A stretch of DNA of 47,176 bases from Pseudomonadota bacterium (lineage in GTDB: Bacteria; Desulfobacterota; Desulfobulbia; Desulfobulbales; SURF-16), in assembly GCA_018897105.1 (NCBI GenBank), contig JAHILF010000056.1:1-47176 (forward strand), given 5' to 3'. The notes below the pieces were generated by a model. That model had not been told where the DNA came from and did not search any database. It was given only the letters and a program-made list of their open reading frames with translations. The position numbers and the translations under genes were made by a program. The first letter of the stretch is position 1. Each line of letters opens with the position of its first letter. This document shows positions 3,539-30,000 of the stretch, piece after piece.

Positions 3539-5908
3539 TTAATAGATGTCTGTCATTGCAATCTGGGTCAGAGCTACGCCGGTGAGCTTGATAACATCGG
3601 TGTAACCTGTACCGTCAGTATCAATAACCAGGTAGCTGTCGCTGCCAACCTGACCGACATAGTACAGAACCGTGGCATCAAGTGCGGTATTAGCAGCAGC
3701 CAGCAAGGTGGCCAGATCAGCTGCTGCGGCGCCGGCCTCGGTATAGTTTGTTGCCGAACCCGCGGCGAGGTTGGTTTCAGTGATTTTATCGGTTGCTGTC
3801 ACGAAATCGGTAATGGTATCGGTTACAACGCCGGCAGTTGTGTCAATATCGGCGGTAGCTGTCGTAAAGTTATCAATACCGGCGTTACCGGTCATTGTGT
3901 CGGCGCCTGCGCCACCGATTATGGAGTCAGCGCCTGAACCGCCGATCAGAACGTCTGCCAGGCCCGAACCAGTAACAGTCAGCACACCGGTTAGCGAAGT
4001 GGCATCAATTTTAGTACCGGTAACGGTGCCGGCAATAGCATTGGTGATGGTCAAATTAGCGGAACCGGAAATATTAAACACGCTGTTATCGCTGTTGGTC
4101 AAGGTGGTTATTGTATTGGTGCTGCCTGATGTACCGTTGGAGGTCATTGTCACGGTGGTGACACCCGTGGTTACCAGTGTGCCTACTGTAAAACCTGATG
4201 TGGTAGCGGCGCCAACATTAACAGTTGTATCCGTGACGCCAACCGCGGGAGCGAGGGTCAGTGAGGTTGTAGCAATATTTATATCAGTAGTGCTGCCGGT
4301 CGCCAAATTATTGATGACGTCGGTTAGTCCCGTAGTGTCAACCGCAAAGTGTTTAATCGATGTCAGAGTTGATGCATCCAAGGTGATAGCGGCGTTAATG
4401 CCAAAAATCTCAAAACCCGTGGTCGCATTCAGGATGGCGGTTTCCGCAACGGACAAAGCCGTATCGAGTGTGCCGATTTTGTCAAGCGAACCGGCCCCGC
4501 CGGCAAGCTGGGTGCCGGCGGTAAGTGTGCCTAACTGATTATTCGCTATTTTAATACTGTCATTGCCGGTTCCACCGGTAAAGGTAAAGGCTGCTATATT
4601 GGCGGCCGCGCTCGCGTCAACTAAGCTGCCCCCTGTATTTCCACTGCCGTTTATACTGGTTAAAATCGCTGCGTCACCAGCGGACACTGCATAGGTCAGA
4701 GCCTGGTCACCGGTAATGGTATGGGTGAGAACAGTATTCGGCGCATCGAATGTGGCAATTTTATTGGCATGTCCTCCCTGGGAGACTAAATTCATGGCGG
4801 TGAGAGCGGCTCCGGTGACCGATATATTCTGCAGCGTTGCGCCGGCAACATAAGCAAAACCGTTCATATTAAGCGTTGCCGATGTATCGGTAGCGGAAGC
4901 GGCCCATGTCAGCGCACCGGCCATTTGGGCGCCGTTTGTTGTAGCCAAACCCAATTTAACGCCGGAACCGGTTGTAATGGTTTTACCGCTGATTGCCGCC
5001 GCGTTCAGAATATTGAATTGGGTGAAACCGCCGGAAGCGGCTGAGACGTCCAAGGCAGCGTCAGCAGCCGCGGCAATCTGCAGGGTTTCAATGCTGGTCA
5101 TGGCAGGCAAAATAGCTGCCGTAACAGTACCATAAAGGGTTACAGTATCCGTGCCGGCCCCACCGTTAAGCTGGTCAGAGGCGTTGATGGTAGAAGCGCC
5201 CTGGTCACCAATAAATGTATCATCACCAGCGGTGCCGGTGAAGGAATCGGTAGCGGTAGTAAGGGTATAAGTTTGGCCAGTAGTGGTCGTTGTGGTACCG
5301 GAAATTGTGTCATCAATAGTGAGCAGTGCTGAGGTCAGTGAGGCATCGGTGGTCACACCATCCAGCCAGGCGATTGCGTTGGCTGGATTGGCAATAAAGT
5401 CATTATTCTCAGCTGCAGTGTCAAGAGCGGCAGTGTAACTGCTGGCCGCGGAAACCTTATTCTGGAATGCAGTTGACTCGGTGGCGGTTACTTCGGCTGA
5501 AAGATCAACGCCCCAAGTAGGAGGCGCACCGTAAGTGCCGTCATTTTTTGGCATCAAATGCAAATCGTTCAACATGGCATTGGCCAGGCCCTTAGCCTTG
5601 ATTGACCCGGAAATCAGCCCGGATACGTAATAATTGTAGGTATCGATGTCCAGCGTTGTTGAGGTGGTACCGGTCATCCGCTCATACATATCGGTGACCA
5701 TGGTGCCTGCGTCCGCGGCGCTGGGAACATCAGTTCCCATGTCGCCAAGTCCGCTCACATATGTGACCAGACCAGCTTTCCAGACATTGCCGTTGTTAGC
5801 CAGCAGTAGCTGGTTATAGATACTTAGTTCTGTGGCACTGGCCGAGCGGCCGAGTGTAGCCACGAAGTAAGCTTGCACCTTGTTGTTGTAATCTGCAGCT
5901 GTAGCCAT
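3539..5908 (-). CDS. RTX/S-layer-like secreted protein, type I secretion substrate
   Basis: A 789-residue, cysteine-free, Thr/Ala/Gly/Asp-rich protein without a Sec signal peptide. Residues ~1-115 resemble the DUF4214/S-layer N-terminal region (starting ATAADYNNKVQAYFVATLGR). A short calcium-binding RTX-like stretch occurs near residue 215-255 and a clearer nonapeptide block near 647-680 (GGSGADSIIGGAGADTMTG). The middle is a long beta-strand-repeat region. The C-terminus (IDTDGTGYTDVIKLTGV, ending DIY) looks like an uncleaved type I secretion signal. Expected location is the cell surface or medium, as an adhesin or S-layer subunit. No exporter is adjacent; the complete TolC/PrtD/HlyD set at 25386-30000 is the likely route. 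The start has a strong AAGGAG and a candidate promoter upstream. The exact biological role is not determinable. Confidence 0.88.
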   Translation of the reverse strand: MATAADYNNKVQAYFVATLGRSASATELSIYNQLLLANNGNVWKAGLVTYVSGLGDMGTDVPSAADAGTMVTDMYERMTGTTSTTLDIDTYNYYVSGLISGSIKAKGLANAMLNDLHLMPKNDGTYGAPPTWGVDLSAEVTATESTAFQNKVSAASSYTAALDTAAENNDFIANPANAIAWLDGVTTDASLTSALLTIDDTISGTTTTTTGQTYTLTTATDSFTGTAGDDTFIGDQGASTINASDQLNGGAGTDTVTLYGTVTAAILPAMTSIETLQIAAAADAALDVSAASGGFTQFNILNAAAISGKTITTGSGVKLGLATTNGAQMAGALTWAASATDTSATLNMNGFAYVAGATLQNISVTGAALTAMNLVSQGGHANKIATFDAPNTVLTHTITGDQALTYAVSAGDAAILTSINGSGNTGGSLVDASAAANIAAFTFTGGTGNDSIKIANNQLGTLTAGTQLAGGAGSLDKIGTLDTALSVAETAILNATTGFEIFGINAAITLDASTLTSIKHFAVDTTGLTDVINNLATGSTTDINIATTSLTLAPAVGVTDTTVNVGAATTSGFTVGTLVTTGVTTVTMTSNGTSGSTNTITTLTNSDNSVFNISGSANLTITNAIAGTVTGTKIDATSLTGVLTVTGSGLADVLIGGSGADSIIGGAGADTMTGNAGIDNFTTATADIDTTAGVVTDTITDFVTATDKITETNLAAGSATNYTEAGAAAADLATLLAAANTALDATVLYYVGQVGSDSYLVIDTDGTGYTDVIKLTGVALTQIAMTDIY

Positions 5909-14339: not shown

Positions 14340-15275
14340 CTACCCTTCTTCATCCAGCGGGCACCTGCCGGTACACCCACGCATACCGTGCCAGAACCCC
14401 AGAGCCATCATCCGCTGGTGCGTCCGCCAGGGCCTCGCCAACAAGGTATAAATACCGTACTTGTAGAGCAACTTCCAGCTTATTGCAAATTTCCAGCCAA
14501 AAGGCAACCATGATTGCCTTACCATCCAGACGGCGTTTCGAAACTGGTAATACCGCCTGAGCGGGCTGTGCACCGAAAAAGTATGGCCCAGAAAACGGAC
14601 CGGCTTTTCGCCCAGGTTGTGCGCCATTCTTGCGTTGCACGCCACAAACGTTTGGTAGCCGAGACTTTTGGCGCGCAGGCACCATTCGATGTCTACATAA
14701 TCAATGAAAAGACTTTCGGTCTTTCCCCCGACCGCAGCCAACACCGTCATGGGGATCAGAGAACCGGAGGCGATCACATGGTCAACCGGTAGAATGTCCC
14801 CTGATCGGTCGCATTTGCAGATTTCAAGCCGCAGGCCACGCAGGCGCACAAAGGGCAGCTGTTGCCTGCTCCTGGCATCCTCATGCCGGGGGCCGACCAC
14901 GGCAACCAGGTTACCCTCGGCTGTGAGCTTTTCCGCCGCTGCCAACAGCCGGTCCACCATGTCCGATGCAGGGCGACTGTCTTGGTCGAGCAGCAGGACA
15001 TATCCTGCTCTCTGCCGTTCTGCCCAGTCAATCCCGGCATTCTGTGCCACGGCAATGCCCAGGTTTTCTCCCAAGCCGAGGCAGTGCACCTTGTCGCCTT
15101 TCACGTTGCCGGACAGCCAGGATGCAATATCCATTTTTGAGCCGTTATCGACCACGACAACCGCGTCGACCTGAGGCAGCACGGCGGCCAGGAGGGCGGC
15201 AAGCACGGGCAGATCGGGCTGGTAGGTCACGATCAAGGCTATGATCGGGCTTGTGCCGAGCATGACATCAACCAT
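14340..15275 (-). CDS. Family 2 glycosyltransferase, rhamnosyltransferase-like
   Basis: A 311-residue GT2 enzyme adding a sugar, probably rhamnose from dTDP-rhamnose, to a growing surface glycan in the cytoplasm. The GT-A nucleotide-binding start (IIALIVTYQPDLPVL, AVVVVDNGSK) is followed by the metal-binding DQDSRP near residue 98 and the WbbL/RfbF-type acceptor region (DYVDIEWCLRAKSLGY, then RRYYQFRNAVWMVRQ). The start ATG overlaps the stop of the preceding large fusion gene (ATGGTTGA, 8 bp), indicating translational coupling; it is the last gene of the glycan operon. Sugar specificity is inferred from family resemblance only. Confidence 0.88.
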   Translation of the reverse strand: MVDVMLGTSPIIALIVTYQPDLPVLAALLAAVLPQVDAVVVVDNGSKMDIASWLSGNVKGDKVHCLGLGENLGIAVAQNAGIDWAERQRAGYVLLLDQDSRPASDMVDRLLAAAEKLTAEGNLVAVVGPRHEDARSRQQLPFVRLRGLRLEICKCDRSGDILPVDHVIASGSLIPMTVLAAVGGKTESLFIDYVDIEWCLRAKSLGYQTFVACNARMAHNLGEKPVRFLGHTFSVHSPLRRYYQFRNAVWMVRQSWLPFGWKFAISWKLLYKYGIYTLLARPWRTHQRMMALGFWHGMRGCTGRCPLDEEG

Positions 15276-18200
15276 GACGCGTTATCTGTTGGGAGGCCGG
15301 AACTTGTCCTGCGGCAAGAACTGTGTGATAAAATCCAGCCAGTTCCCGGGCCTGCTCCTCAAACCACCGAATCCCGGCCTTTTCAAGATCGATCTCCGCA
15401 CCTGTCTCAATGCGCGCGAAATATTCCAGCGTATTAGTGACAGCCTGCATCAAGCCTTCCCCAGTATCATGAAACGGTACAATGAGACCGTTCTTTCCGG
15501 GATGAATGTCCTCCACGGCCCCCCCGGCATCAGTCGCTATTACCCAAACGTTTCTGACAATAGCCTCTCTGACGGTCAAACCGAAACTTTCTTTCCACTG
15601 AGACGGGAAAAGCAGCACGTCAATGGATGCAAAAAAATCGTCAATCGTCTCCTGCGTATAGGCTGGAACAATCTCGACATTGGCGATCCCCCGGAAAAAA
15701 CAGTGGTCATAGGAACGAAACCCAAGGTTGAGCGTGTTGTCCACCACGACCAGGCAGGCATCCACTCCAGAGAGTCCGCAAAAAACCTTTTTGACCAGGC
15801 TGATGCCCTTGATCTCCGTGTTTCCGCCCACATAGCCGAACCGAATCGGTCCGGGCCGCTTAAGCCTTACCGGATCACCCGGCCTGGCTATGCCGTTTTT
15901 ATTGACGACTATTTTTTCCTCTGCAAAGCCGTTCTGCTGATAAAAATTCGCCGTGAATCGACTCGGGCAAAGCAACAGGGCCGCACCATGCAGGGCCGCG
16001 ACAAGCTTTTCCCGCCGATAGCGCAACAGGCCCGACGACACGACGCAATCGGCGCATTTTCCGAAGTCAATGGTTTCCTGTCCGCAATAGACTCCTTTTT
16101 TATCCACCATGAACTGCCGGGCGCAAAGCCACCATGCGTCATGGAGAGTGACCAGGTACGGGATCCCCTTGTCGGCACAATAATCGAGAATGGAAACGCC
16201 AATGGTCTGAAGACAGTGGACATGCACCAGATCCGGCTGCACCGCGTCAACCACCTCAACAAAAGACTGCAAAACATGAGGATTGACAAATTGTTCTACG
16301 GCCTCGGAGTGCGCAGGAATGCCAAGGCCAAAAACCGGAATTCCGTGGGCCTCGTAGCGTTTTACCGCATAAGGGGCCGCGACCGATGCTGGCGCGGTGG
16401 CCAGCACGAAAATCTCAAATTCGTCTCCGCCGTTGAGAATTTTATTCATTTCCTCGGCGACCACCGTGGCACCGCCGAATGAAAACGGGCTGTAGTAAAC
16501 ATTCACCGACAGGATGCGCCGTTTTATATGTGCAGGCGGATTCAGCGGAAAAATCGGGGCCAACTGCCGGGCCGCAATGGAGTCGGGCGCATAGCGGGCC
16601 AGCACGGTTTCGCGTGCCGCAGCGCCGATCCGCCGCCTCAAGTCCACCTCCCTGATCAACATGGTAAGCGTTTCAGTCCATTCTGCCTCGGTTTCACAAA
16701 GATAACCGTTCACACCGTGAACTATCACATCCCGGAAGGCGGAGCGCGGCGAACAGAGGGAAGGGATGGACAGGATAGAAGCCTCCAGGTATTTGATATT
16801 GCTTTTGGAATCATTGAAAATATAATTTTCCAGCGGCGCCAGACTGATGTCACAGGCCCCCAGCCGGGCCAGGTACTCGTCATAGGGGCAGAACTCAAGG
16901 CGCTCGATCTGAGCGGAGCAGGCCGAAAGGATCTCGGGCAGTTCGAGATAACCGATTATCAACAATCGTGCTTCGGGAAAATCTTTCAACACTTGGGCGA
17001 CGGACTTGGCAACCTCCAGAAAATCGCAATCATGGGTGCTGGTGCCCGAGCCGTAGACAATGCGCACCAATCCGTCCTGCCGGGGCCTTTCCGATGAACG
17101 GCGACGTTTGACGGCAAGCCCCATGGTCTGGGGAGCAAGGGCGTTCTCCAGGAGATGCACCCTTGCCAATCCGGCATTTTTCATGGCCAAGACCAGCCCG
17201 GAAGTTGAAGCAATACCCTGGTCGCAGGCAAGCATTGCCGCACGGTAGAGATGTGCTCCCTCCAGCAGCCCCTTGCGCACGGCAACGTCGAGCCGTGCTA
17301 ATGTGCTACTGCCTTCCAGTACGGCCCGATCGAAGATGAGATCGTCGACCTCCCAGAAGGTTTGCAGACGCAGCCGCTTCGCTTCGGCTATCAACGCGAG
17401 CAGCTGCGGAAATGCCGGCGTCCGGTAGAAGATCACCACGCTATGGGTTTGCAGCGCGCCAAGACACGTCTCGGTATCCTGCCAGGCGAGAATCGAACAG
17501 CGGAAACCCAGAGATTCAAGCATCTCTTTTTTCTGTGTCACACGGTATTTTTTGCACTGGGGTATGCTGAGCTCGGCGATGAGAAGAACCGCAGGCGTGA
17601 ACATACCGTCGGCTGCGCGATTCACGATGCGCGAAAACTCCTCGATGCTCTCCGTCCCTCCGGCAATTGGCTGAAAATGCGCGTTCAGGCTGCGGGCAAA
17701 AAGATCGTGGAGGCCCGGCATGCCACCGTTTAGAAAATGGCTCCAGACGGTTTTCAGCCAGTAGCCGATCCTGTGCGGTTCCTGACCGACCCGGCGCACC
17801 GTCATTGCGCCCAGCCTAGCCAGATTCCGAGAAAAACGCACTACTCGGGGCCCACCGAAGCCCAACCAACGCAACGGCTTCGTGACTCTCCAGCTGGTTG
17901 AGGAAAGAATCGCCGCTATCTGCAGGTCCCGTTCCTCCACGTTTCGGGCAAGTTCCGTAACTTGCCGGCTTCGTTCGACCATGGCCTGTTCAAGTCGGTT
18001 GATGCTCTCGTTCCGACGGATAACCGTCGCATTCAGCCAGGAGATCCGATCTTCGCACTGATCCAGATAACCGAAGGCAGGAGCCAGATCCTGCAGGGTT
18101 TCAGCCATGCAGGCCACGGCGGCCAAGGTCTCCGGCGCGTCCACCTCCAACGATTCATCGGCCAGGCCCGAGAACAGGGAGTACGCCCTGACCAGAAATG

Positions 18201-18936
18201 GCGGTGTGCTCTCGTCCGCTTTCAGGTCCTCCATCCCGAAACAGGTGTGGCGAAGCCCGGTTTCAAGGAACTGCCCCGCATATTCTGCAGTTTTTTCGGC
18301 AGTCAAAGGCAGTTCCAGGGAGGCAGACATGCGCCGCAGCTGCTTTTCCGGGTCGGTGAGCAGCATGTCGTAATCAACCACCACCCTTTTTGCTCCGCCG
18401 GTATGCTTCAAGGCGGAAACCACATGCCAGAGCCAGAGCAGATGACTCTTTACCGGCGGCACCTCTCCCCGCCGGTTGCCGCCAGCCAAGGAACAGGCCA
18501 CGCTCAGGGGATGACGCAGTGCGATCACATATCCGACATCAAGGTCCAAAGCCCGAAAAATCTTCTGCCAGAATGGAAGAAGCAGACAAAGCCGGGGATC
18601 CTTGAGACCGAAAACAGGAAACCGCAGTATCCTGGCATGGATCAGGTCGAAGGCTCGGTCCGTCAGTTCGGCGGGAATCTTCTCCATCATTACCGTGCCG
18701 TCCGGCGGCAGCAACGAGCTCCATTTCCGGTTAAGACAGGCGAGAATATCCTTGTTGAGGGCATGGATTTCCGCATCTTCCCAGTAGCCCTTGACATTGT
18801 CACCCGGTACCGGCGGCAACAGGATGTCACCCAGTTCGACCCCTAAGGCAACAAGACCGCTGGTGATCGCGCTGGTACCGCTGCGGTGCATTCCCAGCAC
18901 CACGATAAGGCGTTTTTTATTGGCTCCGGTGCTCAT
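15268..18936 (-). CDS. Trifunctional fusion: sulfotransferase, coiled coil, two glycosyltransferases
   Basis: About 1222 residues. Residues ~8-285 form a PAPS-dependent sulfotransferase (Sulfotransfer_3 type): the phosphosulfate loop GMHRSGTSAI near residue 15, and the 3'-phosphate-binding arm LRHPLSVACSL. A heptad-rich linker (~292-347, NESINRLEQAMVERSRQV) ends with STSWRVTKPLRW, a sequence often seen at domain joints of large glycosyltransferases. Two GT-B (GT4-like) domains follow, one from ~446 (with GVNGYLCETEAEWTETLTM) and one from ~805 (SVNVYYSPFSFGGATVV ... GKNGLIVPF). It would both extend and sulfate a surface glycan at the cytoplasmic face. The ATG at 18936, preceded by a GATGAG sequence, is chosen over the 18969 ATG, which overlaps the upstream gene. 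Donor sugars are unknown. Confidence 0.87.
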   Translation of the reverse strand: MSTGANKKRLIVVLGMHRSGTSAITSGLVALGVELGDILLPPVPGDNVKGYWEDAEIHALNKDILACLNRKWSSLLPPDGTVMMEKIPAELTDRAFDLIHARILRFPVFGLKDPRLCLLLPFWQKIFRALDLDVGYVIALRHPLSVACSLAGGNRRGEVPPVKSHLLWLWHVVSALKHTGGAKRVVVDYDMLLTDPEKQLRRMSASLELPLTAEKTAEYAGQFLETGLRHTCFGMEDLKADESTPPFLVRAYSLFSGLADESLEVDAPETLAAVACMAETLQDLAPAFGYLDQCEDRISWLNATVIRRNESINRLEQAMVERSRQVTELARNVEERDLQIAAILSSTSWRVTKPLRWLGFGGPRVVRFSRNLARLGAMTVRRVGQEPHRIGYWLKTVWSHFLNGGMPGLHDLFARSLNAHFQPIAGGTESIEEFSRIVNRAADGMFTPAVLLIAELSIPQCKKYRVTQKKEMLESLGFRCSILAWQDTETCLGALQTHSVVIFYRTPAFPQLLALIAEAKRLRLQTFWEVDDLIFDRAVLEGSSTLARLDVAVRKGLLEGAHLYRAAMLACDQGIASTSGLVLAMKNAGLARVHLLENALAPQTMGLAVKRRRSSERPRQDGLVRIVYGSGTSTHDCDFLEVAKSVAQVLKDFPEARLLIIGYLELPEILSACSAQIERLEFCPYDEYLARLGACDISLAPLENYIFNDSKSNIKYLEASILSIPSLCSPRSAFRDVIVHGVNGYLCETEAEWTETLTMLIREVDLRRRIGAAARETVLARYAPDSIAARQLAPIFPLNPPAHIKRRILSVNVYYSPFSFGGATVVAEEMNKILNGGDEFEIFVLATAPASVAAPYAVKRYEAHGIPVFGLGIPAHSEAVEQFVNPHVLQSFVEVVDAVQPDLVHVHCLQTIGVSILDYCADKGIPYLVTLHDAWWLCARQFMVDKKGVYCGQETIDFGKCADCVVSSGLLRYRREKLVAALHGAALLLCPSRFTANFYQQNGFAEEKIVVNKNGIARPGDPVRLKRPGPIRFGYVGGNTEIKGISLVKKVFCGLSGVDACLVVVDNTLNLGFRSYDHCFFRGIANVEIVPAYTQETIDDFFASIDVLLFPSQWKESFGLTVREAIVRNVWVIATDAGGAVEDIHPGKNGLIVPFHDTGEGLMQAVTNTLEYFARIETGAEIDLEKAGIRWFEEQARELAGFYHTVLAAGQVPASQQITRHG

Positions 18937-18953
18937 TGTCTCATCTTTCCATC

Positions 18954-19730
18954 TTAGTAGCCTGACCATTTTAGTTCCGGCTGGCAGCAGGTAAGCAACC
19001 GCCTGGCCTCATCCGGTCGGAACTCCCGTGCCCCACGTCCGACACTGGCGCCATGGATGGAAGAAAACTGCAGGGTCTTCTGGTCTTCGATGCCGGTTCC
19101 TCGTGCAGGGTCGGCGAACAGATCGAGAATCTCCGGCTCAAAGGGCAATTCCAGCCAGGAGAAAAGGTGTTGAAGAGTTTCCACCGGTGCCCGAACTAGG
19201 TCATCGTATCGCAAAAGCAGACTGTCATCCGGCCACTGCTCCATATGATGCCTCGCAGCCCGGCAATTGGTCAGCCAGCGATCAAGTACGGCCTCCGGCT
19301 CGGAGGGCAGCGACTTTACAAAACCGGCCTCCCTGGCGGAGGCAAGCATATCCAAGGGATAGCGTGCCATGTGAATGTAGCGGAAACCGGCGGGCAGCAG
19401 CATACGCCATTGTTCGAGATAGAGAGCGTTCTCCGGATCCTTGTCCGCCCATATGGGCTTGCCCAGCCGGTCGGCTATCCGCTGTCTCAGCGCCAGATAG
19501 CCCTGTCCGATGGTGTCAAGCAGATCCTCTGTGGAGGCGGGCAGGCTGCGCACCGTGGTGAAAAAGCGAAGATGGGCGTAGGGGTCGTCCTGAAACTCCA
19601 GGCGCAGGTCACGGAAGAATTTTATCTCCGGCGGGCAGTGGATCTGGCTGTGGCTGTCCAGGAGCCGACGCAGGAGCGTGGTGCCGCAGCGGTAAAAACC
19701 GCCGATGATGATTGGGCGCAGGTCAGACAT
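18954..19730 (-). CDS. Sulfotransferase family protein
   Basis: A 258-residue PAPS-dependent sulfotransferase. The 5'-phosphosulfate loop is GGFYRCGTTLLRRLLDSH near the N-terminus, followed by the acceptor-side PPEIKFFRD and the 3'-phosphate motif ARYPLDMLASARE with its Arg and Ser. Length fits the minimal single-domain Sulfotransfer_3 family. The ATG at 19730 overlaps the stop of the upstream sulfotransferase (ATGTCTGA); a TTG nine bases earlier is the alternative. It is cytoplasmic and acts on a lipid-linked glycan or a protein. Together with its neighbours it implies more than one sulfation position. Confidence 0.88.
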   Translation of the reverse strand: MSDLRPIIIGGFYRCGTTLLRRLLDSHSQIHCPPEIKFFRDLRLEFQDDPYAHLRFFTTVRSLPASTEDLLDTIGQGYLALRQRIADRLGKPIWADKDPENALYLEQWRMLLPAGFRYIHMARYPLDMLASAREAGFVKSLPSEPEAVLDRWLTNCRAARHHMEQWPDDSLLLRYDDLVRAPVETLQHLFSWLELPFEPEILDLFADPARGTGIEDQKTLQFSSIHGASVGRGAREFRPDEARRLLTCCQPELKWSGY

Positions 19731-20586
19731 CGTAACCAAGCTCCGCTAGCAGATCGCCTGCATGGAGATGAAAAACATCGATTTCAGCCGGGGTGAAGGC
19801 GGCCCGCCACTTGCCAGCCTGGGACGGATCAGGGGGGCGCATCGTGTGCTTGTGGATGGAGAGGCGCTGCTCTCTGGGAATCAGAACGTTTCCCTCCCCA
19901 TCGGTCCGATCACCCATCTCCCCGAGCCGCAGATCCGCATTGCGGTGGTAATCGAGCATGGCCTCAGACCATGGCAGATCAAGGAATTGACAGACCCTCC
20001 GCAGGACAGCCTCGGGCTCCGCAAGCAGATCCTCAAAACGCACTTCAAAATACACCCCAGCTGGCAGGGAAGCAGCCTGCAGACGGGCGTTTATGATGCG
20101 GTCCCGCCAGAAGACGACGCTCGCTTCCATCCCCTGACCGGCCGGACCAAACCACTTGTCCCGAAAGGAAAGGGCCACATCACGGCCGTCACGGATCATA
20201 TGGATGAAGCGCGCCTCGGGCAGGAGACTGTGCAGAGCGGCAATATACTGCACATAGGGGGGGGACTTGTCTCCCCAGCGGGATTTACCGAAACGCGCAG
20301 CATAGGCGAGGTAAAAAACGCGGACCGCTTCGGCGAGAACAAAAGGGCCATGGGCCGCCATGTCCGCAGCCAGCGCCATGGCGTCGAGATGGAAATCGCC
20401 CCAGGTATGGGCGGCGGTGAGCATGGCGATAAACTCTCCGACTCCCTCCGGCGGGTGTTCGAGTATTCCGGCCAGAAAATGGGTTTCCGACGGGATGGCC
20501 AGTTGTGGATGGGCGTCGAGCATCAGCCGCAACAGCGTAGTGCCCGAACGGCCAACTCCGACGATAAAGGGAGCAGGATGGGTCAT
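19723..20586 (-). CDS. Sulfotransferase family protein
   Basis: A 287-residue sulfotransferase. The phosphosulfate loop is GVGRSGTTLLRLMLDAHP, followed by PSETHFL, WGDKSPPYV and the 3'-phosphate motif IRDGRDVALSFRDKW. The loop region resembles that of protein-tyrosine sulfotransferases as well as glycan sulfotransferases of the same Pfam family, so a protein acceptor cannot be excluded. The ATG at 20586 is chosen because it forms an ATGA overlap with the stop of the Wzt fusion gene; the longer frame to 20640 lies inside that gene. It is part of the surface-glycan operon. Confidence 0.9.
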   Translation of the reverse strand: MTHPAPFIVGVGRSGTTLLRLMLDAHPQLAIPSETHFLAGILEHPPEGVGEFIAMLTAAHTWGDFHLDAMALAADMAAHGPFVLAEAVRVFYLAYAARFGKSRWGDKSPPYVQYIAALHSLLPEARFIHMIRDGRDVALSFRDKWFGPAGQGMEASVVFWRDRIINARLQAASLPAGVYFEVRFEDLLAEPEAVLRRVCQFLDLPWSEAMLDYHRNADLRLGEMGDRTDGEGNVLIPREQRLSIHKHTMRPPDPSQAGKWRAAFTPAEIDVFHLHAGDLLAELGYDV

Positions 20587-22721
20587 GGCCGTTCTCCACC
20601 CAGAAATGGATGCTGTCGCCAGGGAACGGAAACATCCCACCCGTCTTTCTCCGGATCAACCAACTGCTCTCGCGATGGTAGCCAGGCATCATGAAGGTTA
20701 AAATTTGCCCGCCGACCATGCCAGCCGAGGGTATTGACCTCATATGCACTGTAATTGCGGGCAAGCGTATATTTTTCCTCAAGATGATGCAGACTGAGAA
20801 AAGGATAATGACGGAGAATACATTTTTCCGGTGCCAGCCGCAGGCCGGAGAACTCGACGCGATGGCCGCCGGAATGGACCAGATTCGGGCAACTTTCAGT
20901 TTTTTTCCAGGCGTTCACCCGATGTTCCGGCGTTGGGGCGAAATGATAGGCCAGCCGCAGCCGGGCAACATAATCATCGCCGGAGTGAAGTTCTTCCCCG
21001 GCAAGAGGCAGAAAAACGAACTCTTCAAAATCAATCGCGGTATATCCTTCTTTATCAAGGCGGCGGATTGCCTCGGTCAGGGTTTCTCCCTGCCGCCGGC
21101 TCTGCCGTATTTCATCGGCGTCATGGTGGATGAACCAGTCGGCGTCCAAGGTGACTGCCAATTCAGCCTTACGCCTGAGCAATCCCTGCCAGTCGAAATG
21201 GCCGGCATAGGGGTAACGCTCGACCCCAACAACTCCGCGTCCTTCCCAGGTGCGGGCGATCTCGACGGTGCTGTCGCTGGAATCGTTGTCAATGACGTAT
21301 ACCAACACGCCCTGCTCCGTGAGATGCCGCAGACATCGTTCCATGTACGGCGCCTCGTTGCGCACTGCCAACAGCGCCATGACCCTGATATCATGACGAG
21401 GTTGGGGCATCACCTTCCTATCAGGATGTTGTTCCGTCAGTTGCACTTCACTTGTGCAGACACCAAGAAAATCCAAGTGCAACGGTGCATCAGTCACCCG
21501 AAAATGGAGGGCTGCTATCTGGCTCTGTAAGGGCAGGAAATCCTGATGAGTTATGCGCCGCAGCAATCGCAGGGTGATGAAATAATCACCCAGGGTCAAG
21601 CGGTTTTCCAGCTGAAGTCTGAAACGCCGTAAATGATTGTCAGAACTATCAAGCAGAAAACGTTTTCCAGTAATCTCAAGCAGGCGATGATTCTGCACCA
21701 CAACCGCCAAGGCAAGATCGCCATCCCCGGCCGGACAGATGACATCTACCTCCAGAGTCAGGGGCTCCCCCAGACGTACCTGCGTCTGCTTGTTCTGGGT
21801 CTCTACAAAGACCGCACGGGAAATCTCTCCTTCGCCGTTGCCGAATGCCGCGGACATGGAAGCGTCTCCCAACTTCGGTTGCTGCCGGATCGGCCGCCTC
21901 AGGCCAAGGGCCTGTCGATGCTGTTCCCGTGAATCGAAAAAATATTGTGAGGCAATGGTTTCAGGATCGCCGATCCCTTTAATTTTTCCATCTTCAAGGT
22001 AGATCGCCCGCCGGCAGAAGCTCTGCACCATCCCCATGTCATGGGAAACAAAAAGCATGGTCACCCCTTCCTGCTGCATACGTTCCAGGCGCTTAAGGCA
22101 CTTGAACTGGAACGCTGCATCGCCCACGGAAAGCGCTTCATCAACGATGAGAATATCCGGCTTGAGGCACACCGAGACGGCAAAGGCGAGGCGCACATAC
22201 ATACCGCTGGAGTATGTCTTGACCGGCCTTTCAAGAAACTCTCCGATATCGGCGAAATCGGCAACCTCTCCGAATATGGCTTCCGTCCGGGCATGATCCA
22301 GCCCGAGAATGGCCGCGCTCAGAAATACATTCTCGCGTCCGGTGAACTCAGGGTTAAAGCCCGCCCCCAATTCGAGCAGGGCGGCAATTCTTCCCCGCAC
22401 TTGGATATCACCCGCACTTGGGTTCAGGGTTCCCGCGATCAGTTGCAGCAGGGTGGATTTTCCCGAGCCGTTCCGCCCGATTATGCCGACCATTTCTCCC
22501 GGCGCAACGTCAAAAGAGACATCACGCAGCGCGTAAAATTCTTCGTAATAAGCTAAAGACGTCAGTCCAATCCAACGGCGTAGACGTGGCAGAACGGATT
22601 GTTTCAGACGGTCCCGCGGCTGCCCATAGATCTGGTAGCATTTGCTCACCCCCCTGACGCGGATGGCCATCTCATCATCGGCTTTCTGTCCGGCCTGCTC
22701 ACAGGTATGCTCAAATGACAT
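20583..22721 (-). CDS. Wzt-like glycan exporter ATPase fused to a glycosyltransferase
   Basis: 712 residues with three parts. The ABC ATPase (~15-250) has Walker A GRNGSGKST (near residue 82), the signature YSSGMYVRLAF typical of O-antigen/teichoic acid exporters, Walker B ILIVDEAL and the switch VSHD. A Wzt-type carbohydrate-binding domain (~300-440) should recognise the finished glycan. A GT2-like domain (~450-690) follows: VMALLAVRNEAPYMERCL, VYVIDNDSSDSTVEIA, LDADWFIHHDADEI, then a His-rich acceptor region. The domain order suggests coupling of export to a last glycosyl addition. The ATG at 22721 overlaps the permease stop by 11 bp. The fusion is real as read, since the frame is continuous without any internal stop. 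Confidence 0.9.
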   Translation of the reverse strand: MSFEHTCEQAGQKADDEMAIRVRGVSKCYQIYGQPRDRLKQSVLPRLRRWIGLTSLAYYEEFYALRDVSFDVAPGEMVGIIGRNGSGKSTLLQLIAGTLNPSAGDIQVRGRIAALLELGAGFNPEFTGRENVFLSAAILGLDHARTEAIFGEVADFADIGEFLERPVKTYSSGMYVRLAFAVSVCLKPDILIVDEALSVGDAAFQFKCLKRLERMQQEGVTMLFVSHDMGMVQSFCRRAIYLEDGKIKGIGDPETIASQYFFDSREQHRQALGLRRPIRQQPKLGDASMSAAFGNGEGEISRAVFVETQNKQTQVRLGEPLTLEVDVICPAGDGDLALAVVVQNHRLLEITGKRFLLDSSDNHLRRFRLQLENRLTLGDYFITLRLLRRITHQDFLPLQSQIAALHFRVTDAPLHLDFLGVCTSEVQLTEQHPDRKVMPQPRHDIRVMALLAVRNEAPYMERCLRHLTEQGVLVYVIDNDSSDSTVEIARTWEGRGVVGVERYPYAGHFDWQGLLRRKAELAVTLDADWFIHHDADEIRQSRRQGETLTEAIRRLDKEGYTAIDFEEFVFLPLAGEELHSGDDYVARLRLAYHFAPTPEHRVNAWKKTESCPNLVHSGGHRVEFSGLRLAPEKCILRHYPFLSLHHLEEKYTLARNYSAYEVNTLGWHGRRANFNLHDAWLPSREQLVDPEKDGWDVSVPWRQHPFLGGERP

Positions 22722-23529
22722 CGGCAAATCCCTTGCGAATTTTTTGAAACCAGAAAAATCCGAGCCAGGCCGTTAAGGCGGTAAAAACAGTCAACATGAA
22801 GAAGGGCCTCCACGCCAGACTCTTTCCGAAAAAAAGAAGGTTACGCGCCTGTTCGACGATGAAGGCGAGAGGATTGAGGGAGAGCACAAACTGATATCTC
22901 TCGGGAATGGCGGAAATAGGGTAAAAAATCGGGGTGATGAACATCATAACAGAGGTCAGCACACCGATGATTTGCGCCGTATCCCGCAAGTAAACGCTAA
23001 GTGCGGCAAGAAACCAAGTCACACCCAGGATAAGCAGTGCCAGCGGCGCAAGAAGCACGGGAAACATAAAAAAAGTGGCGTGGGGAACGCCGAACAATAC
23101 GAAATAAAACAACAGCCAGACCATCAGGCTGACAAGGGCATGAAACAAAGCCGCGCCAAAGGAGACAAAGGGAAGGAGTTCCAAGGGAAAAACCACCTTT
23201 TTCACATAGCTGGCGTTGCCGAGAATCAGCGAAGGCGCCCGATTCAGACACTCGGAAAAGAGATTAAAGATCAACAAGCCCGCAAAGAGAACGAGGGCGA
23301 ATTCAGCCCTGGACTCCCCTCCTCCCGGCCAGCGGGCCTTGAACACCACGCTGAACACAAAGGTGTAGACTGCCAGCATTAGAACTGGATTGAAGAACGA
23401 CCAGAGAATGCCCAGCACCGACCCCCGGTAGCGTCCGGCCACTTCCCGTACGGTCAGAACCCGGATAAGATTGCGGTTGCGCCAGAGACTGAGGAACATG
23501 TGGACCGGAGATATCGAAAAATTCTGCAT
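22711..23529 (-). CDS. ABC-2 type glycan export permease (Wzm-like)
   Basis: A 272-residue integral membrane protein with six predicted membrane segments. The cytoplasmic amphipathic start (LTVREVAGRYRGSVLGILW) and NPVLMLAVYTFVFSVVF are typical of Wzm/TagG/KpsM permeases. The segment PIFYPISAIPERYQ followed by LNPLAFIVEQARNLL is a strong family hallmark. It pairs with the Wzt fusion encoded next to form the transporter that flips undecaprenyl-linked polysaccharide to the periplasm. Length is standard. It begins 60 bp after the upstream GT2. Confidence 0.94.
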   Translation of the reverse strand: MQNFSISPVHMFLSLWRNRNLIRVLTVREVAGRYRGSVLGILWSFFNPVLMLAVYTFVFSVVFKARWPGGGESRAEFALVLFAGLLIFNLFSECLNRAPSLILGNASYVKKVVFPLELLPFVSFGAALFHALVSLMVWLLFYFVLFGVPHATFFMFPVLLAPLALLILGVTWFLAALSVYLRDTAQIIGVLTSVMMFITPIFYPISAIPERYQFVLSLNPLAFIVEQARNLLFFGKSLAWRPFFMLTVFTALTAWLGFFWFQKIRKGFADVI

Positions 23530-23589: not shown

Positions 23590-24555
23590 TTAAAGTTTTT
23601 TAAAAGCGGCGGCGGCAAACAATACCAGATTTCCCAACACACTTTGGCGGCATACCCCCGAGCTTCTGAACTTTAAAAGCCGGGAGAAGAACGGCTGGTC
23701 GCGGGAAATCATGAACTGTTCAAATATATGCCGATTCTCTCTGGTCAGGCGCGAAGCAAAACCACAAAGAGACGTTAGGTTTCGGGTATTCCAGTCCCGG
23801 AATCCCCCACCAAGAAGCATGCTCATCCTTGCCAGACGGCCTGTCAACTTTCTGTTGGAGCCGACAAAGTTGCCGCTGTGCTGTCGGTAGCAGATAGTAG
23901 GCCGAGGATCGAAAAAAACCTTGCCGCCACAACCCGAGACCAGAAGGTACGTCCACCAATCATGGCTGACGATGTCAAGGTTGGGGCCAGCCTCCCTCAA
24001 CAACAACCGGGCGGCGTTGTTGAACACCATGGTGTTCCCTCCCGCGATGCTCTGCACAAGGGCGTTTGCAAAGCAAGGAGGTTTTCTAAAATTCGGCGAC
24101 AAACCTATGTCATTACCTTTTTCATCGATCAACCGTGTACGCGAACAGTAAAGACCAGGAAGATTACAAGGAATTTTTTCTAGCCACTGTAATGCGCCGG
24201 CAAGTTTTTCAGCCTCCCACACATCATCCTGATCAGCATAGGCATAAAACTCTGCTTTGATATCATTTCTACAGGTTAGCGACAAAAAGTTCGCCGCAAA
24301 ACCTTTTCTAGGACCATCACAAATCAAGACCCTATCATTACCACACAACGTTTGGAAATCTTCAAGAATTGCAATCGTATCATCTTGCGATCCGTCATCC
24401 GACACCCACAACTTCCAATAAGGATAGGTCTGTTTGTTGATGGAATCGAGTTGCGCCTCCAGAAAACGCTGACCATTTTTGGTGCAGAGTAATATGGCAA
24501 CCTGTGGAATCGAAACAGACCTGCCATTGTCTTGCATTTTACTTTGCCTCTCCAT
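23590..24555 (-). CDS. Family 2 glycosyltransferase, first gene of glycan operon
   Basis: A 321-residue GT2: VAILLCTKNGQRFLEAQLDS, LWVSDDGSQDDT, FYAYADQDDVWEAEKL with the metal-binding DQDD, and SHDWWTYLLVSGCGGK further on. It resembles the rhamnosyl- or galactosyl-transferases of O-antigen clusters that process a nucleotide-sugar donor in the cytoplasm. Start 24555 is used; the ATG at 24537, preceded by GAGAGG, is an equally good choice. Codon and base composition are more A/T-rich at the 5' end than in the rest of the operon. Sugar specificity is not deducible. Confidence 0.88.
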   Translation of the reverse strand: MERQSKMQDNGRSVSIPQVAILLCTKNGQRFLEAQLDSINKQTYPYWKLWVSDDGSQDDTIAILEDFQTLCGNDRVLICDGPRKGFAANFLSLTCRNDIKAEFYAYADQDDVWEAEKLAGALQWLEKIPCNLPGLYCSRTRLIDEKGNDIGLSPNFRKPPCFANALVQSIAGGNTMVFNNAARLLLREAGPNLDIVSHDWWTYLLVSGCGGKVFFDPRPTICYRQHSGNFVGSNRKLTGRLARMSMLLGGGFRDWNTRNLTSLCGFASRLTRENRHIFEQFMISRDQPFFSRLLKFRSSGVCRQSVLGNLVLFAAAAFKKL

Positions 24556-25385: not shown

Positions 25386-26807
25386 ATGAAGGATAGTTGT
25401 CCATATTGTAATTTCGTACGTCTACTGATTGTGCTTCCTGCATTCATCGTCTGCTGTTTTCCCGCCATGGCATCCGCGGTCCGAGAAAAGATGGAAATTC
25501 CTTCGGAACCTCTGACCCTTGAGCAATGCATCAAAATTGCTCTGACCAACAGCCCTAAATTACAAGTTGCGGAGTATGAAGTTAAGAAAGCTGAAGATGA
25601 TGTCAAGATCACTACCGGTCGTTTTCTCCCCTCTATTTCCGCCTCGGCCCGATACGATGATCTCAGAAGCGTGGCAGCACAGGGCCCCTCGAACAGCGAT
25701 TATCTTGAAAACAGGACCAGAGTTTTCCGCCTTGCTGCCACCCAACCTCTTTTTGCCGGTTTTTCGATCTTCAGCACCTGGCAGAAGGCGAAACTGTATA
25801 AGGAAATCGCTGAAATCAGACGGCAATTCATCACCGCCAGCCATATCCTCGATATCAGAACCTCTTTTCTCAAACTGCTCAAGTCAAAGGAGGATGTGAG
25901 AAATTACACTGAGGCCGTGGTCCGTCTGGAAGAAGACCTCAAGGCTGCACAGGCGCGATACGAACGGCATTTCATTCCCCATGTTGATCTGCTTTCAACG
26001 GAAGTGGAACTGGCGGATATACGCCAGGTTCTGAGTCAGGCTGTCAACCAGACAAATGCCATCAGGGTTCACCTCAATGTCCTGCTTGGCCTGCCGCCTT
26101 CGCAGGACATTTATTATACAGGCAACCTCTCTGATTTCTCAATCGATGCGTCCTTATCTCTTGACGAATGTACGAGAATCGCACTCGACAAACGCCCGGA
26201 ATTGACCTTATTGGAAAAACAGGTTGAAATTGCTTTGAAGGACAAAAAGATAGCAAAATACAAATTTGCACCGCGGGTCGATTTGAGCGCCGCATATAAT
26301 CAGTATAAAACTGATTATAAATTCGATTTGTTTTCCTTTACAGGCCCTTACTCACCTGACCAGAAAAACGATTACTGGACAGTGGGTGTGACCATGAACT
26401 GGGATCTTTTTCAGGGTGGCAGCAAATATTATGAGTACAGCAAAACCCTGCATGAGATAACACGCCTCAAAGAGGAACTGGATGAACAGAAGAATTTCAT
26501 CTATGCGGAAGTAAAGGGCTATTATCTTGACCTCAAGGAGGCGGAAGGGAGAATTGACGTCACTAGAAAGACCATCAAACTGGCTAAGGAAAATTTTTAC
26601 AGCGCGCAGAAGAGGTATATGATCTCCCTGGGAACCCAACTGGAAGTCCTCAAGGCACATGAGCAGTTGATCAAGGCGGAGGTCAATGTCAATCAATCCA
26701 TGAATGACTATCAGATCGCCATGGCCATGCTCAAATTTGCCACCGGCGGCTGGTATCCCCTCGGCGGTTCCTCGTCTGAAACATATCTGACTTCCGGGCT
26801 TTATTAA
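25386..26807 (+). CDS. TolC-family outer-membrane channel of type I secretion
   Basis: 473 residues. A signal peptide with a hydrophobic core (LLIVLPAFIVCCFPAMASA, cleavage near residue 35) precedes LTLEQCIKIALTNSPKLQVA, the characteristic start of the first OEP repeat. The second repeat begins near residue 258 (LSLDECTRIALDKRPELTLL). Long helices forming the periplasmic tunnel and YTEAVVRLEEDL/YYLDLKEAEGRI segments complete the fold. As a trimer it would provide the outer-membrane exit for the adjacent PrtD- and HlyD-like proteins. The stop is 14 bp before the ATPase start, indicating one operon. Weak A-rich ribosome site (TTTTAGGAAAAT). Confidence 0.93.
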   Translation: MKDSCPYCNFVRLLIVLPAFIVCCFPAMASAVREKMEIPSEPLTLEQCIKIALTNSPKLQVAEYEVKKAEDDVKITTGRFLPSISASARYDDLRSVAAQGPSNSDYLENRTRVFRLAATQPLFAGFSIFSTWQKAKLYKEIAEIRRQFITASHILDIRTSFLKLLKSKEDVRNYTEAVVRLEEDLKAAQARYERHFIPHVDLLSTEVELADIRQVLSQAVNQTNAIRVHLNVLLGLPPSQDIYYTGNLSDFSIDASLSLDECTRIALDKRPELTLLEKQVEIALKDKKIAKYKFAPRVDLSAAYNQYKTDYKFDLFSFTGPYSPDQKNDYWTVGVTMNWDLFQGGSKYYEYSKTLHEITRLKEELDEQKNFIYAEVKGYYLDLKEAEGRIDVTRKTIKLAKENFYSAQKRYMISLGTQLEVLKAHEQLIKAEVNVNQSMNDYQIAMAMLKFATGGWYPLGGSSSETYLTSGLY

Positions 26808-26821
26808 TCAAGCGGAAAACA

Positions 26822-28522
26822 ATGAAAAAATTTCTTATTCTCTGGAAAAAATACTTTGTCTTTGCAGCGGTATTCAGCATGTTTATCAATCTGCTGCATC
26901 TCACCTTTCCAATTTACATGCTGTCCATCTATGACCGGGTATTGACCAGTTACAGCATGCCGACCCTGATGACCATCACGGCGGGCGCCCTATTTGCCTA
27001 TCTGGTCTTTGCCTGCCTGGATTTTTTGCGCAGCCGTCTGCTGGTCAGGGCCGGCATCGCCATCGATGAAACGCTGAGCGACACGGTGCTGAATGAGATG
27101 CTGAAGGACGCCTCGCGGCTGATCAAGACCGGTTCGGGCAGCGGACTGCGCGATGTGAACAGTTTGCGTAATTATTTCGCCGGCAATACGATTTTCTCCC
27201 TCTTTGATCTCCCTTGGGCGCCTATTTACCTGATAATCATCTTTTTCATGAACACGACACTGGGAACTGTGGCATTAGGCGGTGCCGTGGCCATTATCAT
27301 TCTGGGCATCTCCCAGGAAAAACTGACCAAAAAAGGACTGGACGAAGCAAACAAAAAAAACATGGATGTCCAGCGTTTTATCAATTCGACCATGCGCAAC
27401 GCCGAAGTAACTCGCTGCATGGGCATGCTCTCCGGTATCCGTGAAAGATGGCATCTGAAGAACCGGGCAGTTATTCAACAGCAGACCAAGGCCAGCCATG
27501 ATGCCGGAATGATTTCATCAATGACGAAAACCCTGCGCATGTCCATGCAGGTGTTTATTTACGGCATAGGCGCCTACCTTGTTCTGAAAAATGAATCAAC
27601 CCCCGGCATCATGATCGCCGCTTCCATCATCATGGGTAGGGCGCTTGCCCCTGTTGAACAAGTCATGGCCACCTGGAAACAGACCATTGAGGTACGCGGA
27701 TCCTACCAGCGGCTCGACCAGTTGCTGCAACGGGCCGAAAAAGATGAGTACATGGAGTTGCCGGCCCCCAAAGGTGCTCTTTCGGTGGAAAATGCCCTTT
27801 TGGTCATCGACGGAACGAGAAGGTTGCTTAATGGCGTCACCTTCTCTCTCAATGCCGGTGAATCCATGGGTCTCATCGGTCCCAGCGCTGCCGGCAAGTC
27901 AACTCTCTGCCGCGTTCTGATGGGCATCTGGCCGGCCATGCACGGCACGGTCCGGCTGGATGGGGCAGACATCTTCCAGTGGGACAAAGAACGCCTCGGA
28001 CCGTATATCGGTTATCTGCCGCAGGATGTTGAACTGTTCCCCGGCACGGTGAGTGAAAATATCGCCAGAATGGGAAATGTTGATCCGGACAAGGTAGTGG
28101 AGGCCGCCAAGAATGCCGGGGTGCATGAGATGATTCTCCGGCTGCCCCAGGGCTACAACACGGAAATCGGCGAAATGGGCCAGATGCTTTCCGGCGGGCA
28201 GCGGCAGCGTATCGGCCTTGCTCGGGCCATATATGGCCTGCCAAAATTTGTCATCCTGGATGAACCGAACTCCAATCTTGACGATGTGGGAGAGCAGGGT
28301 CTGTTGCGGGCACTGCAGATACTGAAGGAAAACTGCTCAACAGTCATTATGGTTACCCACAAGATAAGCATGCTTGCCAATATGGACAAAATTCTGCTGC
28401 TCAAGGATGGGGCCGTGGCCATGTTCGGCCTGCGTGATGATGTTTTCAAGGCCCTCGCTCCACAACAGAGTCCACCTCCGCAAAAGAAAATAACGCAGAC
28501 CAGAACTGTTCCTGTCGTTTGA
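26822..28522 (+). CDS. Type I secretion ABC transporter (PrtD-like)
   Basis: A 566-residue half-transporter: inner-membrane domain (~1-310, with FPIYMLSIYDRVLTSYS and later FDLPWAPIYLIIIFF typical of PrtD/AprD/RsaD exporters), then an ATPase with Walker A GPSAAGKSTLC, signature LSGGQRQRIGLARA, Walker B FVILDEPNSNLDD and H-loop VTHK. There is no N-terminal C39 peptidase or C39-like domain, matching exporters of RTX proteases, lipases and S-layer proteins rather than bacteriocins. It dimerises and energises export straight from cytosol to exterior, with the TolC- and HlyD-like neighbours. Confidence 0.95.
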   Translation: MKKFLILWKKYFVFAAVFSMFINLLHLTFPIYMLSIYDRVLTSYSMPTLMTITAGALFAYLVFACLDFLRSRLLVRAGIAIDETLSDTVLNEMLKDASRLIKTGSGSGLRDVNSLRNYFAGNTIFSLFDLPWAPIYLIIIFFMNTTLGTVALGGAVAIIILGISQEKLTKKGLDEANKKNMDVQRFINSTMRNAEVTRCMGMLSGIRERWHLKNRAVIQQQTKASHDAGMISSMTKTLRMSMQVFIYGIGAYLVLKNESTPGIMIAASIIMGRALAPVEQVMATWKQTIEVRGSYQRLDQLLQRAEKDEYMELPAPKGALSVENALLVIDGTRRLLNGVTFSLNAGESMGLIGPSAAGKSTLCRVLMGIWPAMHGTVRLDGADIFQWDKERLGPYIGYLPQDVELFPGTVSENIARMGNVDPDKVVEAAKNAGVHEMILRLPQGYNTEIGEMGQMLSGGQRQRIGLARAIYGLPKFVILDEPNSNLDDVGEQGLLRALQILKENCSTVIMVTHKISMLANMDKILLLKDGAVAMFGLRDDVFKALAPQQSPPPQKKITQTRTVPVV

Positions 28523-28575
28523 AGGTCTTCCAACAAAAATTAACAGTACATCCGTAATATAGCGAAATTAAAAGC

Positions 28576-30000
28576 ATGGATACAGAACTGAAACAGACTT
28601 CCGAAGGTTCGGAAAAAAAACTGCCCGCACCTTCCCCTGCCGAAAAAGAAGGTTCTCTTGCTGACATTGTGAAAGAGCCTGTCATTGAAGCGCATCAGGA
28701 TATTAATCTCTCCTCTGATCCGAAGCCGGTTATCATGGCAGGCATCTTGGTCATTGCACTTTTTTTCGGGGGCCTTGGAATCTGGGCCGCCTTTTTCCCT
28801 TTCAGCGGCGCCATCATTGCGTCCGGCATCACCAAGGTATCAACGGAACGGCAGACTATCCAACATCTTGAAGGCGGCATTGTTGATAAAATTAATGTGC
28901 GTGACGGTGATCATGTACAAAAAGGGGACACCCTTATCAGTCTTAAAAACAGCCAGATCGATTCCTCCGTCAGTCTCCTGCAGGGGCAGCTGTTGGCAAA
29001 GCTTGCGGAAAAAGCACGGCTGGAAGCGGAAAAAAGTGGCGCTTCTGAAATCGTCTGGTCTCCGGAATTGCTGGAAAGCCCGGAAAATATGACGGCACAA
29101 AAAGCAATGGCGGACCAGGTGGATATTTTTCTGACCCGCAAACAGGAAGTTCAAGGTAAGATCAATCTCTATGAGTCACAGATCGAACAGCTGCAAAAAG
29201 AGATAGTCGGACTCCAGGAAGATCTCCAGACAAAAGATGAGATCCTGGCCAATTTTAATGAGGAGTACAAGGCAAAAGAGGAACTCTACCAGGAAAGGTA
29301 TATCGACAAGGTCCAGATTCTGGAAATGCAGCGCCGCATTTCTGAACTCAAGGGCACCTCCGCCAGATTCCGCCAGACCATAGCCGGCAATCACAACAAA
29401 CTGGAAGAGCTCAAGCTGCAGATCACCGATCTTCACAATGTATACAAGGAAAATGCCGCTACCAACTTTGGCAAGACAAACGATAATATATTTTCCATCA
29501 GGGAACAGCTTACTCCTCTCCTTGACGCACAAAGCCGCATGGGCATAACTGCGCCGGTAAGCGGTATTGTCATCAATCTCACCGTCCACTCCGAGGAAGG
29601 GGGAGTTATTCTGCCACGAGCCCCAATTCTTGATATTGTCCCGGAAAACGCCGAGCTGATCCTTGCCGCCCAAATAGGCCTTAATGAAATTACCAAAGTA
29701 CATGTGGGACAGGACGTCCTGGTCCAGTTGAGCGCCTTCAACAGGCGCAAAGTCCCTCTCATCCCGGGCAAGGTTGTCTACGTGTCGGCTGACCAGGCAA
29801 CCGAAAACACACCAAGGGGACCCCAGTCTTTTTATGAGGTCTCGGTAACCATAGACAAAGAAGAACTGGAAAAGCATGATGCATACCTGAGCCCCGGCAT
29901 GCCGGCTGTCTGTTTTATTACCACGGAAAAACGGACGATTCTGCAATATCTGCTGGAGCCGATATTAGAAAATTTGGATAGGTCGTTGAAGGAAAGTTGA
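28576..30000 (+). CDS. Type I secretion membrane-fusion protein (HlyD/PrtE-like)
   Basis: 474 residues: a cytoplasmic Pro/Glu-rich tail of ~50 residues, a single membrane anchor (MAGILVIALFFGGLGIWAAF), the half-lipoyl motif IQHLEGGIVDKINVRDGD, a long coiled-coil hairpin (~115-310, e.g. YESQIEQLQKEIVGLQEDL), the second half-lipoyl region (ITAPVSGIVINLTVHSEEGG) and a beta-barrel with VSADQATENTPRGP. Bridges the ABC protein and the TolC-like channel. The cytoplasmic tail is somewhat longer than usual for PrtE relatives and might contact substrate. It begins 53 bp after the ATPase gene. Confidence 0.94.
   Translation: MDTELKQTSEGSEKKLPAPSPAEKEGSLADIVKEPVIEAHQDINLSSDPKPVIMAGILVIALFFGGLGIWAAFFPFSGAIIASGITKVSTERQTIQHLEGGIVDKINVRDGDHVQKGDTLISLKNSQIDSSVSLLQGQLLAKLAEKARLEAEKSGASEIVWSPELLESPENMTAQKAMADQVDIFLTRKQEVQGKINLYESQIEQLQKEIVGLQEDLQTKDEILANFNEEYKAKEELYQERYIDKVQILEMQRRISELKGTSARFRQTIAGNHNKLEELKLQITDLHNVYKENAATNFGKTNDNIFSIREQLTPLLDAQSRMGITAPVSGIVINLTVHSEEGGVILPRAPILDIVPENAELILAAQIGLNEITKVHVGQDVLVQLSAFNRRKVPLIPGKVVYVSADQATENTPRGPQSFYEVSVTIDKEELEKHDAYLSPGMPAVCFITTEKRTILQYLLEPILENLDRSLKES

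Follow-up and report, generated by a model that had tools for sequence, protein, structure and literature searches.

The DNA analysed here (the window) is a contig of 47,176 nucleotides, and its minus strand carries a glycan operon whose genes overlap or almost touch. In the order of transcription these encode a GT2 glycosyltransferase, the ABC exporter permease Wzm, its ATPase Wzt (with a Wzt_C domain and a fused GT2), two sulfotransferases, a sulfotransferase-glycosyltransferase fusion and a GT2 of the rhamnosyltransferase type (Table 1).

The fusion gene and its surroundings

The frame of the fusion gene is uninterrupted at 15268-18936(-) and encodes 1222 residues; the longest open reading frame (15268-18969(-)) gives 1233 residues. 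Judged from the sequence, ATG 18936 has a better ribosome-binding context than ATG 18969; it lies 17 bases past the upstream gene, with GGAAAG 8 bases before it. Residues are numbered according to the 1233-residue frame, and the numbering of the structural model begins at residue 12. Since the open frame extends over 3.7 kb and has several independent family matches, it is not a chance frame. An initial annotation of this DNA had described one continuous frame for a sulfotransferase, a coiled coil and two glycosyltransferase (GT) modules on a single polypeptide. Pfam, AlphaFold2 and heptad analysis agree with that description; the frame is on the minus strand, and the plus-strand frame over the same interval is broken by stops.

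Table 1. Features of the glycan operon and of the fusion gene
Feature	Coordinates	Strand	Residues	Evidence
GT2, rhamnosyltransferase subfamily; its first bases overlap the 3' end of the fusion gene	14340..15275	-		TIGR01556, 233.6 bits (cut-off 200.55)
Fusion gene, sulfotransferase - coiled coil - amphipathic segment - GT4 - GT4	15268..18936	-		open frame, domain matches, start context
Second GT module, GT4	15370..16503	-	EX7E at 1127-1135	PF13439 and PF00534
First GT module, GT4-like	16525..17595	-		Pfam PF13524, profile search; NF038229 46 bits, below cut-off
SxSWRxTxPLR element and basic amphipathic segment	17785..17901	-	357-395	hydrophobic moment, charge, relatives
Continuous 90-residue helix / coiled coil	17866..18135	-	279-368, best heptads from 299	AlphaFold2 secondary structure, heptad score
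Sulfotransferase domain	18160..18921	-	17-270	AlphaFold2 model, structural alignment, Foldseek
RHPLSVACS, 3'-phosphate-binding motif	18490..18516	-	R152, S160	R141 and S149 (model numbering) invariant in 31 sequences
KDPR motif	18592..18603	-	123-126	K112 and R115 invariant, D113 and P114 nearly so, in 31 sequences
GMHRSGTS, 5'-phosphosulfate-binding loop	18871..18894	-	26-33	G15, M16, H17, R18, S19, G20 and S22 (model numbering) invariant in 31 sequences
Stand-alone sulfotransferase	18954..19739	-		PF13469, 87 bits
Stand-alone sulfotransferase; probable ATG 20586 overlaps the wzt stop	19723..20640	-		PF13469, 138 bits
Wzt, ATPase + Wzt_C cap-binding domain (approximately 21492-21848) + GT2	20583..22727	-		PF00005, PF14524 34.2 bits (cut-off 30.4), PF13704
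Wzm, polysaccharide ABC exporter permease	22711..23529	-		PF01061, 94.8 bits
GT2 glycosyltransferase	23590..24555	-		PF00535

Exactly three PF13469 (Sulfotransfer_3) matches are present genome-wide, all in the glycan cluster. The genome also encodes an ATP sulfurylase-APS kinase fusion for PAPS synthesis; APS kinase as such is common, with 11 of 14 control genomes having it. The dsrA gene is present at full length (581 bits), which suggests that the organism is probably a sulfate reducer.

At 34 bits, the Wzt_C domain of the operon scores lowest among the Wzt_C domains compared in detail (86-128 bits for the others), and on this score it is a diverged member. The Wzt protein itself (20583-22727, minus strand) has a C-terminal GT2, and unusually long Wzt_C proteins (636-669 residues) are present also in the relatives L193, L214, L218 and L219. 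Regions at 3539-5908 (minus strand) and 25386-30000 (plus strand) flank the operon and encode an RTX-like Thr/Ala-rich protein of 789 residues and a full type I secretion set (TolC, ABC and HlyD), with homologues of the RTX protein and the secretion genes at the syntenic locus of another genome, G305. Such an arrangement of RTX and type I secretion genes with glycan genes resembles S-layer loci in which the layer is anchored by O-polysaccharide, as in Caulobacter. Elsewhere in the window, 978-3431 (plus strand) encodes an 817-residue TPR - radical SAM - SPASM protein.

Domains of the fusion protein

The N-terminus of the fusion protein scores 19.3 bits against PF13469, below the cut-off of 27 bits, while homologous relatives exceed it (L014, 43.7; L018, 38.7; and L013, 35.0 bits). 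Because of this weak score, 31 family sequences were aligned and the alignment was used to predict the structure of residues 12-440 with AlphaFold2. The pLDDT was mostly >90 across the sulfotransferase part, and with the model as Foldseek query, ranks 1-26 were sulfotransferases without exception (probability 1.00). Structural re-alignment gave Z 14.9 for TPST1 (5wri; rmsd 4.0 over 214 residues), and Z 14.8 for an olefin synthase sulfotransferase domain from a cyanobacterium (4gox). The fold and the PAPS-binding motifs are shared with TPST1/2 and with the sulfotransferase domains of olefin synthase and curacin (Z 14-15, 14-16% identity), which act on protein or polyketide acceptors and are not glycan enzymes.

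Both PAPS-binding motifs are present (Table 1), and the R-x7-S spacing of RHPLSVACS is that of known sulfotransferases. On the modelled fold and these motifs, rather than on the PF13469 score, we assign the N-terminus to the PAPS-dependent sulfotransferase superfamily; the initial annotation had named loss of the fold or of the PAPS contacts as what would speak against a sulfotransferase, and the fold and the PAPS motifs are both present. That the domain is a degenerate, non-catalytic sulfotransferase retained as a scaffold is very improbable. Such a reading could draw on the PF13469 score and on the relative L012, in which loop residues are lost (GMHESDSS) and the fusion is kept. The fusion protein, however, retains every residue that is invariant in the 31 sequences, among them E64, K and R in KDPR, and those of the two PAPS motifs; for this reason an inactive pseudo-sulfotransferase was rejected. 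As for L012 (9487-13329, minus strand), its head lacks the PAPS loop (it also has QDPS), is still fused to two GT2 modules and, as read from its sequence, is possibly a pseudoenzyme.

The sulfotransferase domain is followed by the long helix, whose heptad score was matched by none of 300 shuffles. Within it, the 42 residues from residue 299 have L, I, V or M at 75% of the a/d positions vs 7% elsewhere; the clear heptad part is approximately 60 residues and hence short. The SxSWRxTxPLR element at its end is also seen after the coiled coils of many relatives. Residues 378-395 have the highest hydrophobic moment in the entire protein and a net charge of +5, in a region where the AlphaFold2 confidence is low.

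The first GT module matches PF13524 at residues 660-801, and in profile searches it matches solved GT4 enzymes mainly via its C-terminal half; its N-terminal half has no Pfam match, and EX7E is absent from the usual place, where there is a conserved K...E. The second module (residues 832-1169; PF00534, E 3e-24; PF13439, E 3.5e-12) has, by these family matches, both the N- and the C-terminal GT4 domains, with ESFGLTVRE as its EX7E. Of the two GT-B domains proposed initially, the two GT modules are therefore present and the label GT-B follows from family membership only.

Fusions and Wzt_C neighbourhoods among relatives

In a sample of the phylum, the sulfotransferase family was present in 49 of 395 genomes. 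Where its members are fused to GTs the partner varies: GT4-RgpF (L011), GT2-GT4 (L013, L014, L101 and L105), WbsX-GT4-GT2 (L100) and methyltransferase-GT2-GT2 (L109), while in L104 a GT2 stands ahead of two sulfotransferase matches. A Paracoccus plasmid gene annotated as "glycosyltransferase" (L020) encodes a sulfotransferase fused to GT2-GT2. The fused state requires at least nine changes on a tree of 54 domains, although support is poor for half of its inner branches.

The sulfotransferase domains closest to that of the fusion, in G051 (L140) and G213 (L120), belong to fusions too. They have up to 45% identity, are followed by a coiled coil and SWRxTxPLR, and are encoded directly downstream of Wzt(Wzt_C), but their GT parts are GT4-RgpF and WbsX-GT4-GT2 instead of GT4-GT4. 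From these varying partners we infer that the sulfotransferase-coiled-coil head joins different GT bodies. The domain order, initially described as unusual, does lie on one polypeptide, but it is less unusual than that, since members of this sulfotransferase family are joined to various GTs elsewhere.

A scan of genome contigs with a single protein as query gave one distant relative only, and a scan of viral contigs with the second GT module gave no relative. The GMHRSGTS sulfotransferase family itself is present on approximately 41 viral contigs (L058-L099), mostly as short stand-alone proteins of approximately 220 residues. In two other family members (L102, 7031-10672, minus strand; L108, 5619-9857, minus strand) 900-1100 residues downstream match no GT model.

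We then have the question of genomic context. Ten sulfotransferase sites in the phylum sample, those of G051 and G213 among them, lie within approximately 2.5 kb of a Wzt_C domain, and at seven of these the sulfotransferase gene is the next one after Wzt, in the same orientation. A methyltransferase was found within 2 kb at 29 of 40 other Wzt_C loci vs one of the ten sulfotransferase loci (Fisher p 5e-4), a comparison in which the 40 loci are among the best-scoring and not random, the ten were picked for their sulfotransferase, and the methyltransferase HMM misses the FkbM type. Many family members are located near a short Wzt without Wzt_C, or have no Wzm in reach. A link between the whole family and capping was rejected, as many members are far from Wzt_C.

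Several Wzt_C neighbours are proteins with the order methyltransferase - coiled coil - SWRxTxPLR, FkbM-type ones included. Those of L180 (4951-5862), L184 and L193 occupy the same slot next to Wzt(Wzt_C) and carry the same coiled coil plus element, and the L180 locus is of the same kind and also encodes this GT pair; they differ in that a methyltransferase replaces the sulfotransferase and in not being fused to GTs. At the syntenic G305 locus, where Wzm and Wzt are homologous, the GT pair (35% identical over 801 residues) is encoded separately, and the gene adjoining Wzt(Wzt_C) encodes methyltransferase - coiled coil - SWRVMAPLRRLG. The sulfotransferase head therefore occupies the place of a relative's methyltransferase head. 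Beside another Wzt(Wzt_C), L220 (812-6040, minus strand) encodes 1743 residues with an N-terminal methyltransferase, an NPYFxxxWYL-type repeat and two GT2 modules.

A candidate sulfating chain terminator

In some ABC-exported O-polysaccharides the chain ends in a cap, and a coiled coil separates the capping enzyme, at its far end, from the GTs (PMC11231755); the cap is recognised by the C-terminal domain of Wzt (PMC9445017). As caps, these papers (PMC9445017, PMC11231755) describe methyl, (methyl)phosphate and Kdo. In Klebsiella pneumoniae, O7 ORF6 and O12 WbbB combine the terminator and two GTs in a single coiled-coil protein, with the same order as here (N-terminal terminator, coiled coil, C-terminal GTs) and in a Wzm/Wzt locus (PMC11231755). 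Their terminators are a methyltransferase-kinase (O7) and a glycosyltransferase (O12) where the present protein has a sulfotransferase, and the GT families differ. WbdD of Escherichia coli O9a has an end-modifying domain, a coiled coil and a membrane-associated amphipathic helix, to which residues 378-395 would be a putative counterpart, together with a cap-reading exporter (PMC3482155; PMC11231755), a likeness drawn from the published descriptions; WbdD is a kinase-methyltransferase that recruits a separate polymerase, WbdA, whereas the GTs are fused here. With the class of WbdD, WbbB and O7 ORF6 the fusion protein shares a catalytic domain at the coiled-coil end far from the GTs, which would modify the chain end, and a Wzt with a C-terminal carbohydrate-binding domain.

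On balance we lean towards the view that the fusion protein combines a polymerase and a chain terminator of a lipid-linked surface polysaccharide, with sulfate as the cap for Wzm/Wzt export. The basic amphipathic segment would keep the two C-terminal GT4 modules at the membrane, where they would extend the chain, and the coiled coil would act as a ruler that keeps the N-terminal sulfotransferase at a distance from them. Only a chain of sufficient length would then be sulfated, at its non-reducing end; sulfation would halt elongation, and the C-terminal domain of Wzt would recognise the sulfated end and admit the chain to export.

The main rival to capping is that the sulfotransferase sulfates a sugar of every repeat unit while the GTs assemble it, giving a polysulfated glycan, with a coiled coil that merely oligomerises the protein. 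We consider this unlikely, though it deserves weight: three sulfotransferases per operon fit sulfation at several positions, relatives of the family occur in loci without Wzt_C, and sulfated bacterial capsules and exopolysaccharides are known. Against it, a catalytic domain held by a helix away from the GTs, the Wzt_C in the operon and a methyltransferase-coiled-coil protein in the same slot are the anatomy of end capping, and for these reasons chain termination is favoured. The initial proposal, that one polypeptide would build and sulfate a glycan unit, thus stands as regards the two kinds of domain on one polypeptide, while unit sulfation is less supported than chain termination.

Capping by the fusion is weakened by the low Wzt_C score of the operon, by the shortness of the coiled coil and by the many family members with no Wzt_C close by. 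What also speaks against it is that two more sulfotransferases are encoded between wzt and the fusion gene, the wzt-abutting one (19723-20640) without a coiled coil, so that the capping enzyme could be another. In this case 19723-20640 or 18954-19739 would provide the cap, and the fused domain would sulfate something else or be a structural partner. The position of 19723-20640 agrees with this, as in seven relatives a sulfotransferase directly follows Wzt(Wzt_C). It belongs, however, to another sulfotransferase branch and has no coiled coil, and the domains nearest to the fused one, in G051 and G213, are themselves encoded by wzt-abutting genes; we therefore regard this alternative as improbable, and more so than sulfation of each repeat unit.

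In the wbsalmo locus of Aeromonas salmonicida, a gene for a 216-residue sulfotransferase-domain protein between wzt and wbbB was left unexplained, with no such residue in the O-antigen (PMC4483657); a cap present only at the chain end could easily escape notice there. The open-access literature yielded nothing usable on fusions of sulfotransferases with GTs or on chain-terminating sulfotransferases, an absence that is weak evidence. The terminator-polymerase design is known and a sulfotransferase in the terminator role is undescribed in PMC9445017 and PMC11231755; a 2021 census of chain-termination chemistries (Glycobiology) may already predict sulfotransferase terminators, so priority is uncertain.

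Returning to sulfate capping by the fusion protein, it would add a charged chemistry to the methyl, (methyl)phosphate and Kdo caps, and would account for a PAPS enzyme on a coiled coil beside a cap-reading transporter. It would also suggest that one scaffold can take different terminator domains in exchange, as in the methyltransferase and sulfotransferase versions. More broadly, we hold it an even question whether ABC-transported O-polysaccharides use sulfate as a cap that licenses export, sulfotransferase-coiled-coil proteins having replaced methyltransferase-coiled-coil terminators, perhaps several times, with matching Wzt domains reading the sulfated end. If so, sulfotransferase - coiled coil - SWRxTxPLR beside Wzt_C would be a marker of sulfated surface glycans in environmental bacteria.
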